A stretch of DNA of 64,000 nt from an uncultured delta proteobacterium (GCA_903881505.1 CAIRTM010000091.1:1-64000); one strand, 5' to 3'. Counted from the first letter of the stretch, positions 12,090-16,726 are shown. Numbers and translations: made by a program. The notes: a model not told the origin generated them from the sequence alone.

Positions 12090-12239
12090 CGCCTAAAACC
12101 GGAGCCGCCTTGGCCCGCGGCCGGGCGTGCGCGGTTGTGCGGCAGGGGGTGAAGGGCGGAGCTGCGCCTGTCATGAGTGTGTAGGTCCAGGCCAGAAACC
12201 TCACTTTATCCTCAGCGCCGCTGCGCGAGCTATCGCCTT

Positions 12240-12421
12240 TCATCTAAAACCTTGCCTCCCGCTGAGGCGCAGGTGCGTTTTGCCGCCGAAGTAGTGGATA
12301 TAGTCCATTGACAACAGGTCTGCTCTGTGCGATAGGCATAGCGGTGGTAGCGCAGCACCTCGCGCACCTGATCCATTAATCTAAGATTCTGGTAGGGGCG
12401 GAACTTCGGCTTATTTTCCAT
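12240..12421 (-). pseudogene. intI: Integron integrase IntI remnant, N-terminus only, frameshifted and truncated
   Basis: MENKPKFRPYQNLRLMDQVREVLRYHRYAYRTEQTCCQW, then an approximately 7-nt deletion; the alternate frame continues YIHYFGGKTHLR. This resembles the N-terminal SAM-like region of IntI. Divergent from the cassette array, as in integrons. Confidence 0.85.
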
Positions 12422-12438
12422 CTTTGTGCCTTAATATC

Positions 12439-12541
12439 GTAATAAGTGGAATTTGAAGTCCTTTTTTGTAATACGTGGAATGTTCTTCCATCTATATGGG
12501 CTGATATGATGGAAGTTTCCCCGCCTATTACACGGTTAGTC
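12439..12541 (+). other. attI: Candidate attI region: two 14-bp direct repeats, an 8-bp inverted repeat and the crossover heptamer GTTAGTC
   Basis: gtaataagtggaat (12439-12452) and gtaatacgtggaat (12468-12481); CTTCCATC/GATGGAAG (12485-12492/12508-12515); GTTAGTC (12535-12541) is the exact reverse complement of GACTAAC at the 3' end of cassette 1. Confidence 0.65.
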
Positions 12542-12556
12542 CTAAAGGATTTAATA

Positions 12557-13084
12557 ATGAACAGAAATGAATGGACCGAACTAAGTCTAAAAATATTTGC
12601 ACTATTTCTTTTTTTTAAATTCCTTACCGCAGTTCCAAATTTCATCAACATGCCTGTAATTGCTGAAAAGTATGCTGGCTCGTGGGCTATGCCAGGGGCA
12701 ATTACAGGAGTCTTAGTTTCTTTGGTGTTAGCAATGGTCGTTTGGCGACTTGCCCCTGTACTGTCAAAAGCAATATGGAGAAAAACGGAGCCGCCACAAG
12801 CTATCTCAAATCCGAGTATGGATGAAATTCAAGCAGCTATTTTTTCCGCCATTGGTCTGTTCGTTTTAATAACCGCCTTGCCCGGCATCTCAGAATATCT
12901 GGTTTTAATCAACCAGACATCATCTCCGTTTCAATCAGAATCCGCCTTGGAATTTAAAGCAAAAATTGAGCTGGCAACTATGTTGGTGCAATCTGCAATA
13001 GGATTATTCCTGCTGTTCGGCTCAAGGGGGCTTGTTGCTGTGATAAAAATGGTTCGGAATCTAGGGTTAAAAAAGCAAGACTAA
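12557..13084 (+). CDS. Cassette 1: predicted 4-TM membrane protein of unknown function
   Basis: ATG at 12557 after aaaggat; four hydrophobic segments (LKIFALFLFFKFLTAVP, AITGVLVSLVLAMVVWRL, AIFSAIGLFVLITALPG, MLVQSAIGLFLLFGSRGL). Confidence 0.75.
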   Translation: MNRNEWTELSLKIFALFLFFKFLTAVPNFINMPVIAEKYAGSWAMPGAITGVLVSLVLAMVVWRLAPVLSKAIWRKTEPPQAISNPSMDEIQAAIFSAIGLFVLITALPGISEYLVLINQTSSPFQSESALEFKAKIELATMLVQSAIGLFLLFGSRGLVAVIKMVRNLGLKKQD

Positions 13085-13146
13085 CCATCGGCCTGAGAGG
13101 GACGCGGCAAAAAATCGCGCCGTGCCCCTCATCAGTAACGTTCGCA
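13079..13146 (+). other. attC: attC site 1
   Basis: R'' GACTAAC ... gagagggacgcggcaaaaaatcgcgccgtgcccctc ... R' GTTCGCA. Confidence 0.85.
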
Positions 13147-13158
13147 AAGGAGAACAAG

Positions 13159-13641
13159 ATGAAGAGCTATTTTAAGATAGGTCGTGATATCGTTGTCGGC
13201 AAAGGATTGAGTGCAAAGCATTGGGCTGGTCCGATTATTTTCGGGAAGGAGGCAATTTATCTCTTACCCAATGACGTATCTGTGAAATCACTCAGGGCTG
13301 GATACGACTCAGCATCGGCAGCCGCAGGGATGCTTGGAGGCATGATTGGTGGTGTTATAGCAGGAGCAATGCAAAGCAAAGCCGGATCAAAATCAACATG
13401 GCAAGAACACATCGTTCAGATCAATGAACTTCCACAAAATGTTCTATTGAATCCGGATTGGCCCATAAAAAAAGGTAAGCGACCGGTAATTCTGATCAAA
13501 AAAAGCGATATTGATAAGTTCGAACGTTCTGGTGGCAAGCTTTTGGTTGAAGCGTATGGTGACACCTTCAAACTGGGGCTTAAGCTATTCGGTCGTGGCA
13601 AAGCTATTGAAACTATAAGAAGCCTTGAATGGTCGGTATAG
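13159..13641 (+). CDS. Cassette 2: unknown protein with glycine-zipper-like hydrophobic segment
   Basis: MKSYFKIGRDIVVGKGLSAKHW...ASAAAGMLGGMIGGVIAGAMQSKAGS...; preceded by aaaggagaacaag. Confidence 0.75.
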   Translation: MKSYFKIGRDIVVGKGLSAKHWAGPIIFGKEAIYLLPNDVSVKSLRAGYDSASAAAGMLGGMIGGVIAGAMQSKAGSKSTWQEHIVQINELPQNVLLNPDWPIKKGKRPVILIKKSDIDKFERSGGKLLVEAYGDTFKLGLKLFGRGKAIETIRSLEWSV

Positions 13642-13687
13642 TTGCGATCCATTTTTGAAATCCGGGGGCACCATACTAATTAATTTT

Positions 13688-13755
13688 TGCCAACACCCGG
13701 CTTGAGAGTGACGCGGAAAAAAATCGCGCCGCGCCCCTCATCCTTAACGTTCGGT
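13688..13755 (+). other. attC: attC site 2
   Basis: R'' TGCCAAC ... gagagtgacgcggaaaaaaatcgcgccgcgcccctc ... R' GTTCGGT. Confidence 0.85.
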
Positions 13756-13762
13756 TAATAAA

Positions 13763-14188
13763 ATGAAATCCATAATGAACACATTGGTATGGTGTATGGC
13801 AGTTGCGGTGGGCGGGATGCTCTGCATTATTCTTCCACCGTATCTGATACCCGGAGGAATTCAGACCATATACACAGAGTCATTATTTCCTGTCTTCAGA
13901 ACTGCATGGGAGAATCTTAAAATTCTACCAACCCTGGGGTGCTTTTTAGGCCTTGGTTTTCTTCTCGGCCTTGCACAACCCACAAGATGGTTGCTTCTTG
14001 GGTGCACGACGATAGCAGCGCCACCTATTCTTGCGATTTGCGAAATGATTGTGTCTCCGACTTCTCACAATCTCTGGCCGCTGGAGTTCCTTCTTTACGG
14101 CGTTGTAAACTCCCCCTCTCTTCTTGGGGCATTTCTCGGGTCCAGAATAAGGAAGATACAAAAAAATGAAACCGAACCATCCGCTTGA
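13763..14188 (+). CDS. Cassette 3: predicted membrane protein of unknown function
   Basis: Single ORF in the cassette; hydrophobic segments LVWCMAVAVGGMLCIILPPYLIP, LGCFLGLGFLLGLAQP, WLLLGCTTIAAPPILAICEMI. Confidence 0.7.
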   Translation: MKSIMNTLVWCMAVAVGGMLCIILPPYLIPGGIQTIYTESLFPVFRTAWENLKILPTLGCFLGLGFLLGLAQPTRWLLLGCTTIAAPPILAICEMIVSPTSHNLWPLEFLLYGVVNSPSLLGAFLGSRIRKIQKNETEPSA

Positions 14189-14235
14189 GAGGAACGCGGC
14201 AAAAACCAGCCGCGCCCCTCGGCCTTAGCGTTAAA
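14170..14235 (+). other. attC: attC site 3
   Basis: R'' ACCGAAC (exact reverse complement of GTTCGGT at the cassette 3 start) ... gagaggaacgcggcaaaaaccagccgcgcccctc ... R' GTTAAAC. Confidence 0.88.
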
Positions 14236-14248
14236 CGCAGAAAATAAT

Positions 14249-14587
14249 ATGGCACTTGACTACAAATATTTCCGACCGATAAAAGCCGCTGGTATATGCT
14301 TCATCATTTGCGGTGCAATATCTGCATTAATGTATATGTCCCTCCTTAAAAATCCTGATTTTGACACTGTTTTCCGCATCTTCGTTTTAGTTAATACGTT
14401 TTGGTATCTCGTTATGGGTATAGGAATAGTATTACAAAATAAATGGGGGTATTATTTGCTTAAAGGATTCCTCTACTTTATGGTTTTAGGTTTTCCAATT
14501 GGTACATATTTTGGAGTTAAATCATTACGATATCTACGGGAGCACGACATAAAAAGCTATTTTGCAAAACAGGCAATAGATATCTAG
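14249..14587 (+). CDS. Cassette 4: predicted 3-TM membrane protein of unknown function
   Basis: Three hydrophobic segments (AAGICFIICGAISALMYMSLL, IFVLVNTFWYLVMGIGIVL, LLKGFLYFMVLGFPIGTYFGV). Confidence 0.7.
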   Translation: MALDYKYFRPIKAAGICFIICGAISALMYMSLLKNPDFDTVFRIFVLVNTFWYLVMGIGIVLQNKWGYYLLKGFLYFMVLGFPIGTYFGVKSLRYLREHDIKSYFAKQAIDI

Positions 14588-14613
14588 TGAATTATTAAAT
14601 TGAGCTGAAAAGC

Positions 14614-14679
14614 GTTTAACAATCGGCTTGAGAGGGACGCGGCAAAGAGCCGCCGCGCCTCTTAACTTTCGCGTTGTAC
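14614..14679 (+). other. attC: attC site 4
   Basis: R'' GTTTAAC (exact reverse complement of GTTAAAC) ... gagagggacgcggcaaagagccgccgcgcctct ... R' GTTGTAC. Confidence 0.88.
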
Positions 14680-14712
14680 GAGTATAGTAATTAACGTAGC
14701 AGGAACGTTCAT

Positions 14713-15069
14713 GTGAAATACAAGGACTTGAACCCGCAAGATAGCTATTTCCACCCGTGGACCACATACAGAAAGCGAAATAGGCTCGTCGCAATACTGT
14801 CTATAGCTTTTGTGCCAGCCATGTTACTGATCGGCATTCCATTAGGCTCCGTGGTTGGTGAAAACAAGGGCATGTTCATAGTCTTCTTCGTATGGGCTGC
14901 GCTGATTATGATATTCATCGATTATTCAGTTTTTTGGCATTGCCCGCGTTGCGGGAAGTCCTTTCATATGGACTTTGGGCGGTACGTGAATCCAATGGCC
15001 AAAAACTGCGTTCATTGTAAACTGCCGAAATGGAGTCCTAATGGTTCCGATCGGCAGCATGAGAAATGA
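14713..15069 (+). CDS. Cassette 5: predicted 2-TM protein with C-terminal zinc-ribbon (CPRC...CVHC)
   Basis: GTG start; two TM segments then WHCPRCGKSFHMDFGRYVNPMAKNCVHCKLPKW. Confidence 0.75.
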   Translation: MKYKDLNPQDSYFHPWTTYRKRNRLVAILSIAFVPAMLLIGIPLGSVVGENKGMFIVFFVWAALIMIFIDYSVFWHCPRCGKSFHMDFGRYVNPMAKNCVHCKLPKWSPNGSDRQHEK

Positions 15070-15074
15070 AAATC

Positions 15075-15142
15075 GTACAACAATCGTCTAGAGAGGAGCG
15101 CGGCAAAAAAACGCGCCGCGCTCCTCATCTTTGACATTCGGC
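15075..15142 (+). other. attC: attC site 5
   Basis: R'' GTACAAC (exact reverse complement of GTTGTAC) ... gagaggagcgcggcaaaaaaacgcgccgcgctcctc ... R' ATTCGGC (GTT changed to ATT). Confidence 0.83.
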
Positions 15143-15166
15143 AATGCATAGCACGAGGATGAAAGC

Positions 15167-15505
15167 ATGATTAAGAAATATAACAATATCAGCCTGGCAT
15201 TCGGGATTCCGGGATTGATTGTTCAGACGTTCGGCGTAATCAGCCAGATTACGATAATCAGCCTGGTGGGCGCGGTTCTTCTGATAGTCGGACTTGGCTA
15301 TTATGCAAAATCAAAAGGCAGGCACCCTGCATGGTGCCTATTAGGGCTGCTGTCAATCCTGGGAATAATTATTCTTGCGCTGCTCCAGGATAAGTCCTCC
15401 GAGACAGGCACGCAGGACATACGCCCATTCACAAAAATACTGCTAGTGCTTTTTATCCTCATAATTCTGGCTTTGATAGGTATCGCCATGATGGCCGGCA
15501 ATTGA
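15167..15505 (+). CDS. Cassette 6: small predicted membrane protein of unknown function
   Basis: FGIPGLIVQTFGVISQITIISLVGAVLLIVGLGYYAKSKGRHPAWCLLGLLSILGIIILALLQDKS...; ATG at 15167. Confidence 0.75.
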   Translation: MIKKYNNISLAFGIPGLIVQTFGVISQITIISLVGAVLLIVGLGYYAKSKGRHPAWCLLGLLSILGIIILALLQDKSSETGTQDIRPFTKILLVLFILIILALIGIAMMAGN

Positions 15506-15550
15506 AAAAACTGCCGCCGAAAAGCTTGTTGTTGTACGAATATGAACAAT

Positions 15551-15640
15551 GAGCAACAAACCGCTTGAGAGCGCCCCCGGGGAACCGCAACCAAAGCCGG
15601 GCTCCTGCCCAGACCGGCTCTTTCGGGCATTGAAGCTGAA
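15551..15640 (+). other. Eroded attC remnant at the array end
   Basis: gagcaacaaaccgcttgagagcgcc matches the left half of attC3/attC4 (ccgcttgagag), then diverges; no clean right half. Confidence 0.45.
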
Positions 15641-15652
15641 AACGCACAGGGA

Positions 15653-16435
15653 CTATGGCTGCAGAAAATGTTTTTTAATAAGCGTATCTTTTTCCGCTTT
15701 GCCCGGATAGCTTATTAAAACCGCCCGATATTTACCCTTAAAGACAAAAAGGCTTCCGGCGGCGGCGCCGATGATGCCATGCCTGTGAATGACGGCGCCG
15801 ATATCCTCAAGGCTTCCGGCGCCCCCGAGCACTGTCATGGGAATACTTACGGAATCGCGCACCTTCTGCAGCAAGTGCAGGTCATAGCCCTTCATCACGC
15901 CGTCATTATCAATGGAGTTGACAACAATTTCGCCTGCGCCACATCTTTCCATCTCGGCAGCAAAATCAGCCGGGTGCTTTCCGGTATTCCGAGAGCCGTT
16001 GTGCGTCCAAAGCTCATATTTGCCGCTCAGTGTCTTTTTCTTCACATCTATAACGACCACAATGCTCTGCCTGCCGACTCTTTCGGCCATACTGGTCACG
16101 ATTGCAGGATTTTCAAGTGCGCTGGAGCTTATGGCGATTTTTTCAACACCCAGGCTGAAGATGCGGTGCGCCTGATCAACTGTTTTTATCCCGCCTCCGT
16201 AGCAAAAGGGCATCCGGCATTCAACCGCGAGGTTTTCTATCATTTTATAGTCCGGCTCCCTGCCCTCCATTGTCGCGTCAATGTCCAGGACAATCAGCTC
16301 GTCAACCTCCTTTTCATTGAAAATCTTCACGGCGTTAATCGGATCACCCACATATTTGTGGTCCTTGAACTTTGTGGTTTTAACAAGCCCTTTGTTATGC
16401 ACCAGCAGGCAGGGAATGATTCTGGGGTGTAACAT
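15653..16435 (-). CDS. wbuZ: HisF-like glycosyl amidation-associated protein (WbuZ/HisF2 type)
   Basis: MLHPRIIPCLLVHNKGLVKTTKFKDHKYVGDPINAVKIFNEKEVDELIVLDIDATMEGREPDY...CYGGGIKTVDQAHRIFSLGVEKIAISS; HisF-fold divergent paralog, no histidine genes nearby. Confidence 0.82.
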   Translation of the reverse strand: MLHPRIIPCLLVHNKGLVKTTKFKDHKYVGDPINAVKIFNEKEVDELIVLDIDATMEGREPDYKMIENLAVECRMPFCYGGGIKTVDQAHRIFSLGVEKIAISSSALENPAIVTSMAERVGRQSIVVVIDVKKKTLSGKYELWTHNGSRNTGKHPADFAAEMERCGAGEIVVNSIDNDGVMKGYDLHLLQKVRDSVSIPMTVLGGAGSLEDIGAVIHRHGIIGAAAGSLFVFKGKYRAVLISYPGKAEKDTLIKKHFLQP

Positions 16436-16726
16436 AGTCACATAAAAGGTAAGAAGGTTAGAGGTTTAGCGGCAAACCTTTTCAGGGTTCATTCCGACGG
16501 AATTCAATAGCTCTTTACTTTTTCAAGCCTGTCCGGGGCAGCCCGTTGCGGGAACGATGGCAGCGCCCGCCGAAACATTCGCCCGCAACCGGCAGGACCG
16601 CCATAATGGTAAGACATGCACGCCTGTTTAGTCAACTTATTGCTGCGGTAGAATCGGCAGCATTTTTATCGTCTGGCGACGGGGCATACAGCGGAACGGC
16701 ATGCACAAGGGTTCAATTGCCTGTCC

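Follow-up and report, generated by a model that had tools for sequence, protein, structure and literature searches.

A probable chromosomal integron platform without an integrase gene in cis in an uncultured delta proteobacterium, and dispersed attI sites among its relatives

Clusters of gene cassettes that lack an integrase are common, and their origin is debated between off-target insertion, loss of the integrase gene (intI) and rearrangement. The cluster described here lies in a stretch of 64,000 nucleotides from an uncultured delta proteobacterium (GCA_903881505.1, CAIRTM010000091.1:1-64000; hereafter the window), and we take it, with a probability of about 90%, to be a chromosomal integron platform without an integrase gene in cis. 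In integrons, the integrase IntI joins attI and attC sites, and clusters of attC sites lacking integron-integrases (CALINs) can be mobilised in trans (PMC12444791, PMC8618304), those of Xanthomonas also being found at conserved loci (PMC12444791). Roughly one intI gene in three is a pseudogene, in some cases as a result of intragenomic duplication (PMC2426708), and large intI deletions are known in Xanthomonas (PMC12444791). Like the pseudo-integrons (PMC2426708; Xanthomonas, PMC12444791), the window has an attI site, homogeneous attC sites, small cassettes of unassigned function and an inactivated intI, but it keeps just ~55 of 339 intI codons and belongs to a setting in which several copies of attI and of the intI head occur per genome, with recurring truncation places. 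Like a CALIN, it has five attC sites and no integrase in cis, but CALINs are defined by attC alone, whereas the window also keeps attI and the head of intI (an array on contig C136 of the same genome is closer to the plain definition). Among published cases of extra attI copies, the delta-attI-type cassettes of class 1 and 2 integrons come nearest, being partial copies that stand away from the main attI and are functional with IntI1 in assays (PMC12901181); these replace attC downstream of a gene in mobile arrays, whereas here whole attI sites stand at separate chromosomal loci, upstream of cassettes. On its own, the window is of a known type (CALIN or pseudo-integron); the dispersed satellite attI sites look new, and no relevant report of orphan, additional or multiple attI sites was found in the open literature, subscription papers being outside the search.

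Within positions 12256-15142 of the window are what is left of intI, one attI and five closed cassettes, whose attC sites measure 66-68 bp. These sites lie on the plus strand at 13079-13146, 13688-13755, 14171-14236, 14614-14679 and 15075-15142 (68, 68, 66, 66 and 68 bp, respectively; R' of the fifth is ATT instead of GTT), all within 1 bp of where an initial annotation, made from the sequence alone, had placed them. A covariance model made from the five sites (R1) matches each of them at 76-86 bits, which is circular, and finds no further full-length match in the window. Independent matches come from elsewhere in the same genome, at C136:28344 (81.7 bits) and C85:10572 (52.7 bits), with weaker ones on C147, C136 and C88 (four contigs in total outside that of the window), and from the only same-genus genome compared (G001; record VGSH01, 'Deltaproteobacteria bacterium K_DeepCast_150m_m1_356'), in which R1 found four sites. 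Since the model matched just 4 sites (1 moderate, 3 weak) at 80 related intI loci, the attC type of the window is largely lineage-specific. When bottom-strand folding was compared with that of shuffled sequences, the only clear outliers were attC5 (z -5.3) and attC3 (z -2.8).

The cassettes delimit themselves, in that the first heptamer of each should be the reverse complement of its own 3' heptamer. This relation, already pointed out in the initial annotation, is exact for cassettes 1, 3, 4 and 5 and has one mismatch in cassette 2, each exact match having, by our own arithmetic, a chance of ~1/256 beyond the GTT/AAC core. All on the plus strand, cassette 1 (12535-13139, GTTAGTC..GACTAAC) carries an open reading frame (ORF) of 175 aa at 12557-13084 with ~4 predicted membrane segments; cassette 2 (13140-13748, GTTCGCA..TGCCAAC) one of 160 aa at 13159-13641; cassettes 3 (13749-14229, GTTCGGT..ACCGAAC) and 4 (14230-14672, GTTAAAC..GTTTAAC) predicted membrane proteins of 141 aa (13763-14188) and 112 aa (14249-14587); and cassette 5 (14673-15135, GTTGTAC..GTACAAC) a predicted membrane protein of 118 aa with CxxC pairs (14713-15069). 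The array had been described as one of six cassettes: the six plus-strand ORFs stand, but only five cassettes are complete, the sixth (15136-15571, starting ATTCGGC; ORF 15167-15505, 112 aa, predicted membrane) having no intact attC, its decayed 3' end retaining GTTGTAC (15531) and a half-attC (AACAAACCGCTTGAGAG, 15555-15571). The cassettes have a G+C content of 37-48%, against 60% for the window, and their products are small, five of the six with membrane segments predicted from hydropathy; family searches gave no confident family match for these proteins, and Rfam and tRNA scans of the window gave no match. Adjoining the decayed end of the array is a minus-strand gene of the AglZ/HisF2 family (15653-16441; NF038364, 392 bits), which has no close counterpart in G001.

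Upstream of the array, cassette 1 begins exactly at the crossover (G/TT, 12535-12537) of a near-palindromic attI module on the minus strand (12469-12539), and homology with G001 also ends there. Many related intI genes have, upstream of them, a conserved counterpart of the ~70 bp that precede cassette 1, of the form YAACAGTGTAATAAGTGGAAAA..TTCCATCATAT..ATAGATGGA..TTTTCCACTTATT, with an outer end that reads YAAC (GTTR toward the cassettes) in nearly all of them (alignment A5). A repeat, TAATAAGTGGAA (12440-12451, plus strand), lies between the module and intI, with a second copy, TAATACGTGGAA, at 12469. A sequence model made from 27 attI modules adjoining intact intI genes, the window excluded (R2), scores the window module at 62 bits (E 1.5e-16), which bears out what had been put forward as a candidate attI. 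The same model finds two more modules in the window's genome (C15 and C57), three in G001, and modules in 32 of the 39 genomes searched, none being found in the five same-family genomes searched (G002-G006); its conservation extends to many Desulfobacterota integrons and to Pontiella. It is highly improbable that the window is an off-target CALIN, its cassettes put into an attG-type secondary site without attI. Such a case does exist in the same genome, where two closed cassettes on C136 lie at a site that is not called by the attI model, but the window contradicts it, the first base of its cassette 1 coinciding with the crossover of a conserved attI that abuts the intI head. The C136 array (L043, 11105-13980, minus strand) closes with GTTATAC/GTATAAC and GTTATGC/GCATAAC and is followed by the gene of a 598-aa OLD/GajA-like ATPase.

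Beyond attI lies what remains of the integrase gene (12256-12421, minus strand; codons 1 to ~55 of 339). Its translation, in which an IntI-like N-terminus had been seen, is 88% identical to the IntI of G001 over 41 aa and then, in the next frame, shares 13 of 15 aa with it (joint E 8e-22), a 7-bp deletion after codon 39-40, directly after 'TGTCAATGG', having shifted the frame. At the DNA level, the first 164 bp of G001 intI and the adjacent upstream sequence are 90% identical to the window, homology with the intact gene ending at ~12266 (~codon 55). Taken alone, the minus-strand ORF starting at 12421 is a weak match in an intI profile search (NF011946, E 2.5e-4; Pfam below cut-off), and the 63-aa remnant gave no useful match to solved structures. 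The stretch that follows the truncation (12190-12275, minus strand) resembles short repeats beyond intI in G001, with a 67-bp match (73%, E 1e-5) to three repeat copies past the intI stop codon in L052, and is probably a deletion joint. These sequences are most simply read as the result of a frameshift together with the loss of ~0.9 kb. The intact counterpart, on G001 contig C80 (L052:365-1384), encodes an IntI of 339 aa (TIGR02249, 425 bits against a cut-off of 265) whose best solved relative is Vibrio cholerae IntI4 (PDB 2a3v, E 1.1e-92), of which the window has only the N-terminal head. The G001 protein is 80-85% identical to the IntI of Syntrophaceae and Smithella metagenome-assembled genomes, and merely 47% identical to that of two further genomes assigned to the same family. 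A second integron-integrase-like protein in G001 (C109, L051:6249-7550; 433 aa with an extra N-terminal part, TIGR02249 410 bits) is encoded on a contig with no R1-type attC site to match it. Within the genome of the window, a draft in 149 contigs with a completeness of 96.8%, a profile search found no integron integrase above cut-off, the remaining TIGR02249 matches being far below it, as in control genomes, and Xer-like in appearance.

Taken together, the attC sites and their closure, the remnant compared with an intact IntI, the independently modelled attI, the lack of integrase matches above cut-off, the low G+C content of the cassettes, the attC sites and closed cassettes elsewhere in the genome, and a stub with attI and a closed cassette in G001 (described below) argue for an integron platform without its enzyme. 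The initial annotation, which had taken the locus for a decayed integron of the chromosome that lacks a functional integrase in cis, is supported by both models, by the remnant and by the integrase search, and was right but incomplete: there are more attC loci and three further intI heads in the genome, and an intact IntI in a same-genus genome. We propose that (i) cassettes entered attI (G/TT at 12535) through attI x attC recombination catalysed by an IntI of the G001 type, (ii) most of intI, from ~codon 55 to a short repeat like those past intI in G001, would then have been deleted, (iii) the remaining head would also have acquired its 7-bp frameshift and (iv) the small, mostly membrane-protein cassettes may be expressed from a promoter at the head of the platform. 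The array would have been built before intI was lost or in trans, and would now be frozen unless IntI arrives in trans. Some results weigh against parts of this scenario. In G001, the trmH orthologue has no integron in the 320 bp to the contig end and lacks the HisF2-type neighbour, so that vertical descent of the platform at trmH is not established; an intact intI could be absent from the assembly only, given its draft state; and a strict promoter scan found no promoter.

A weak candidate for that promoter (TTGACA, 17 nt, GATAGG) lies inside the intI remnant at 12308-12336, on the plus strand. It raises the possibility, which we consider unlikely, that a cassette promoter within codons 26-38 of intI led selection to keep attI and the head after the rest of intI was lost. 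The candidate does face the cassettes, and TTGTCAA is present in every head of this genus examined, but besides the negative scan, synonymous conservation at codons 26-38 shows no excess in 43 or 80 intact genes, and TGTCAA occurs in merely 20 of 80 intact intI genes. With this negative conservation test and a -35-like hexamer that is not conserved, we rejected a promoter inside intI as the cause of the common stub end.

The window is not the only truncated copy. Searches with head DNA or with the first 60 aa of IntI found heads on four contigs of its genome (C91, which is the window, C15, C57 and C62; two of the three others have an attI), on C86 and C130 of G001, besides the intact gene on C80, in Smithella and Syntrophaceae genomes (G064, G066 and G070) and in Desulfocapsa-type genomes (G088 and G090), while Pontiella sulfatireligans has one stub and internally deleted copies alongside two intact intI genes. 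One explanation, to which we give slightly less than an even chance, is plain decay: the window would have been the sole main integron of its species and lost intI by deletion, its array being a fossil and the other stubs old, unrelated decay. Consistent with this, the window head shares 90% identity with intact intI and the genome's other heads 70-76%, a deletion joint is seen at its truncation, and decayed intI genes are common in integrons (PMC2426708, PMC12444791). What it leaves unexplained are the recent short head copies in G066 and G070. Over 288 bp the G066 stub matches the intact copy in its own genome at 98.3% identity, and over 177 bp the G070 stub does so at 99.4%, each in unrelated surroundings, so that heads get copied and do not solely decay in place. 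That these stubs are strain alleles of the intact locus was rejected, just 177-288 bp of head being in common, as was a dispersed high-copy repeat, a more diverged stub query having given no clear copies beyond a few per genome. Breakpoints of the heads cluster at codons 36-41 and 53-64, but there are also relics with internal deletions. Independent breaks at codons 36-37 across groups (L236, L237 and L238 in Pontiella sulfatireligans; L240 and L241) resemble a rearrangement hot spot, and short, possibly REP-like (repetitive extragenic palindromic) sequences of the 'GGGGACAG / GGGGTCAAAT' type stand directly past the heads in L183, L184 and L188. In G001, contigs C130 (L152:1-135) and C80 (L052:1-203) have identical starts on the cassette side of two different attI sites, and a common first element (cassette or insertion) therefore probably broke the assembly.

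Some attI modules stand without any detectable intI (solo sites), and these too, like the stubs, can be loaded. For each module, we took the first GTTRRRY and required its exact reverse complement to occur no more than 4 kb away, with an attC-like hairpin and GTT behind it. Closure by this test was found for 15 of 23 modules with full intI, 5 of 8 stubs (window included) and 4 of 10 solo sites. Random GTTRRRY sites, which include some from real arrays, closed in 45 of 600 cases. Without the hairpin condition, 26 of the 41 modules closed, compared with a mean of 5.9 and a maximum of 13 in 200 heptamer-swap trials. Manual checking of the solo site on G076:C176, for which the script had taken a wrong heptamer, showed no closure. 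Several genomes with an intact intI at another place have closed cassettes at stub or solo attI sites, and those at solo sites are also left unexplained by plain decay. In G001, for example, the stub on C86 (L048:553-3222) and its attI are followed by a restriction-modification cassette closed by GTTGGGC/GCCCAAC (a type II pair, MTase_II at 616 bits and REase_II) and by a second cassette closed by GTTAGGG/CCCTAAC, the intact intI being on another contig. In the solo sites of L279, L282, L288, L289, L290 and L278, CTGATAAGCTGACCG replaces CTGTTRRRY, and the modules lead directly into a hairpin.

Some of these sites are at conserved loci with different cargo. A solo attI beside glgX is common to three genomes that each have an intact intI elsewhere (G073, G074 and G076), with flanks 86-91% identical, and is followed by a tyrosine recombinase and an IS91-type transposase in the first, an Eco57I-type methylase in the second and two genes of no assigned function in the third. 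A second locus is common to G073 and G074, the cargo again differing. Closed cassettes were not found at these glgX and second-locus sites, so any turnover there is only presumed to be the work of IntI. In G073, IS91-type transposases (Y2_Tnp, Zn_Tnp_IS91; L190:180-2413 and L191:1312-2753) lie on the cassette side of solo attI sites, right after GTTGAAC, and attI may be a target for such transposases. IS21-like ends, suspected from iterons, were set aside after two inspected loci proved to have IS91-type transposases on the cassette side instead, IS21 genes not having been searched for.

The other explanation is that attI was copied to several conserved loci without a working intI, in Desulfobacterota and Pontiella, and loaded there in trans with different cassettes by a single IntI whose gene lies elsewhere, the window's genome having later lost the enzyme, a scenario we advance tentatively, as falling a little short of even odds. 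The window would then have been a satellite from the start, a copy of attI and head at trmH that never had a full intI, and this possibility, too, we rate at nearly one in two. Heads cut at similar places, near-identical short copies, solo and stub sites with closed cassettes in genomes with an intact intI elsewhere, and the glgX site with its different cargo all speak for it. Against it, the window continues past its truncation into sequence similar to that downstream of the complete intI in G001. This speaks rather for deletion from a full-length gene, but the argument is weak because the repeat is dispersed. The use of dispersed attI sites in trans and the promoter function are both inferred. 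We propose to call satellites those attI sites that have closed cassettes but lack an intact intI in cis, in genomes that encode a complete one at another place, as is the case for G001:C86 and several solo sites; the window today is not one of them, its own genome having no intact intI in our search. It combines an attI adjoining the first cassette with an array of complementary-ended cassettes, as integrons do, without the intact intI in cis; at least two attC sites and no integrase nearby make it a CALIN, and a recognisable but deleted intI with attI and cassettes a pseudo-integron. In origin, the window is either a satellite attI platform or a former main copy, in a family with dispersed attI and distant intact intI. 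Stub and solo attI platforms recur in this integron family, so that the term 'relic', used in the initial annotation, may be too restrictive for the class as a whole.

The ~70-bp attI module is a direct search model for docking sites in a large environmental group. If many integrase-less clusters hold an attI served in trans, a single integrase would govern several gene-capture hot spots per genome. The integron would then, if this is true, no longer equal a single locus, and attI searches could separate off-target insertions from true docking sites.

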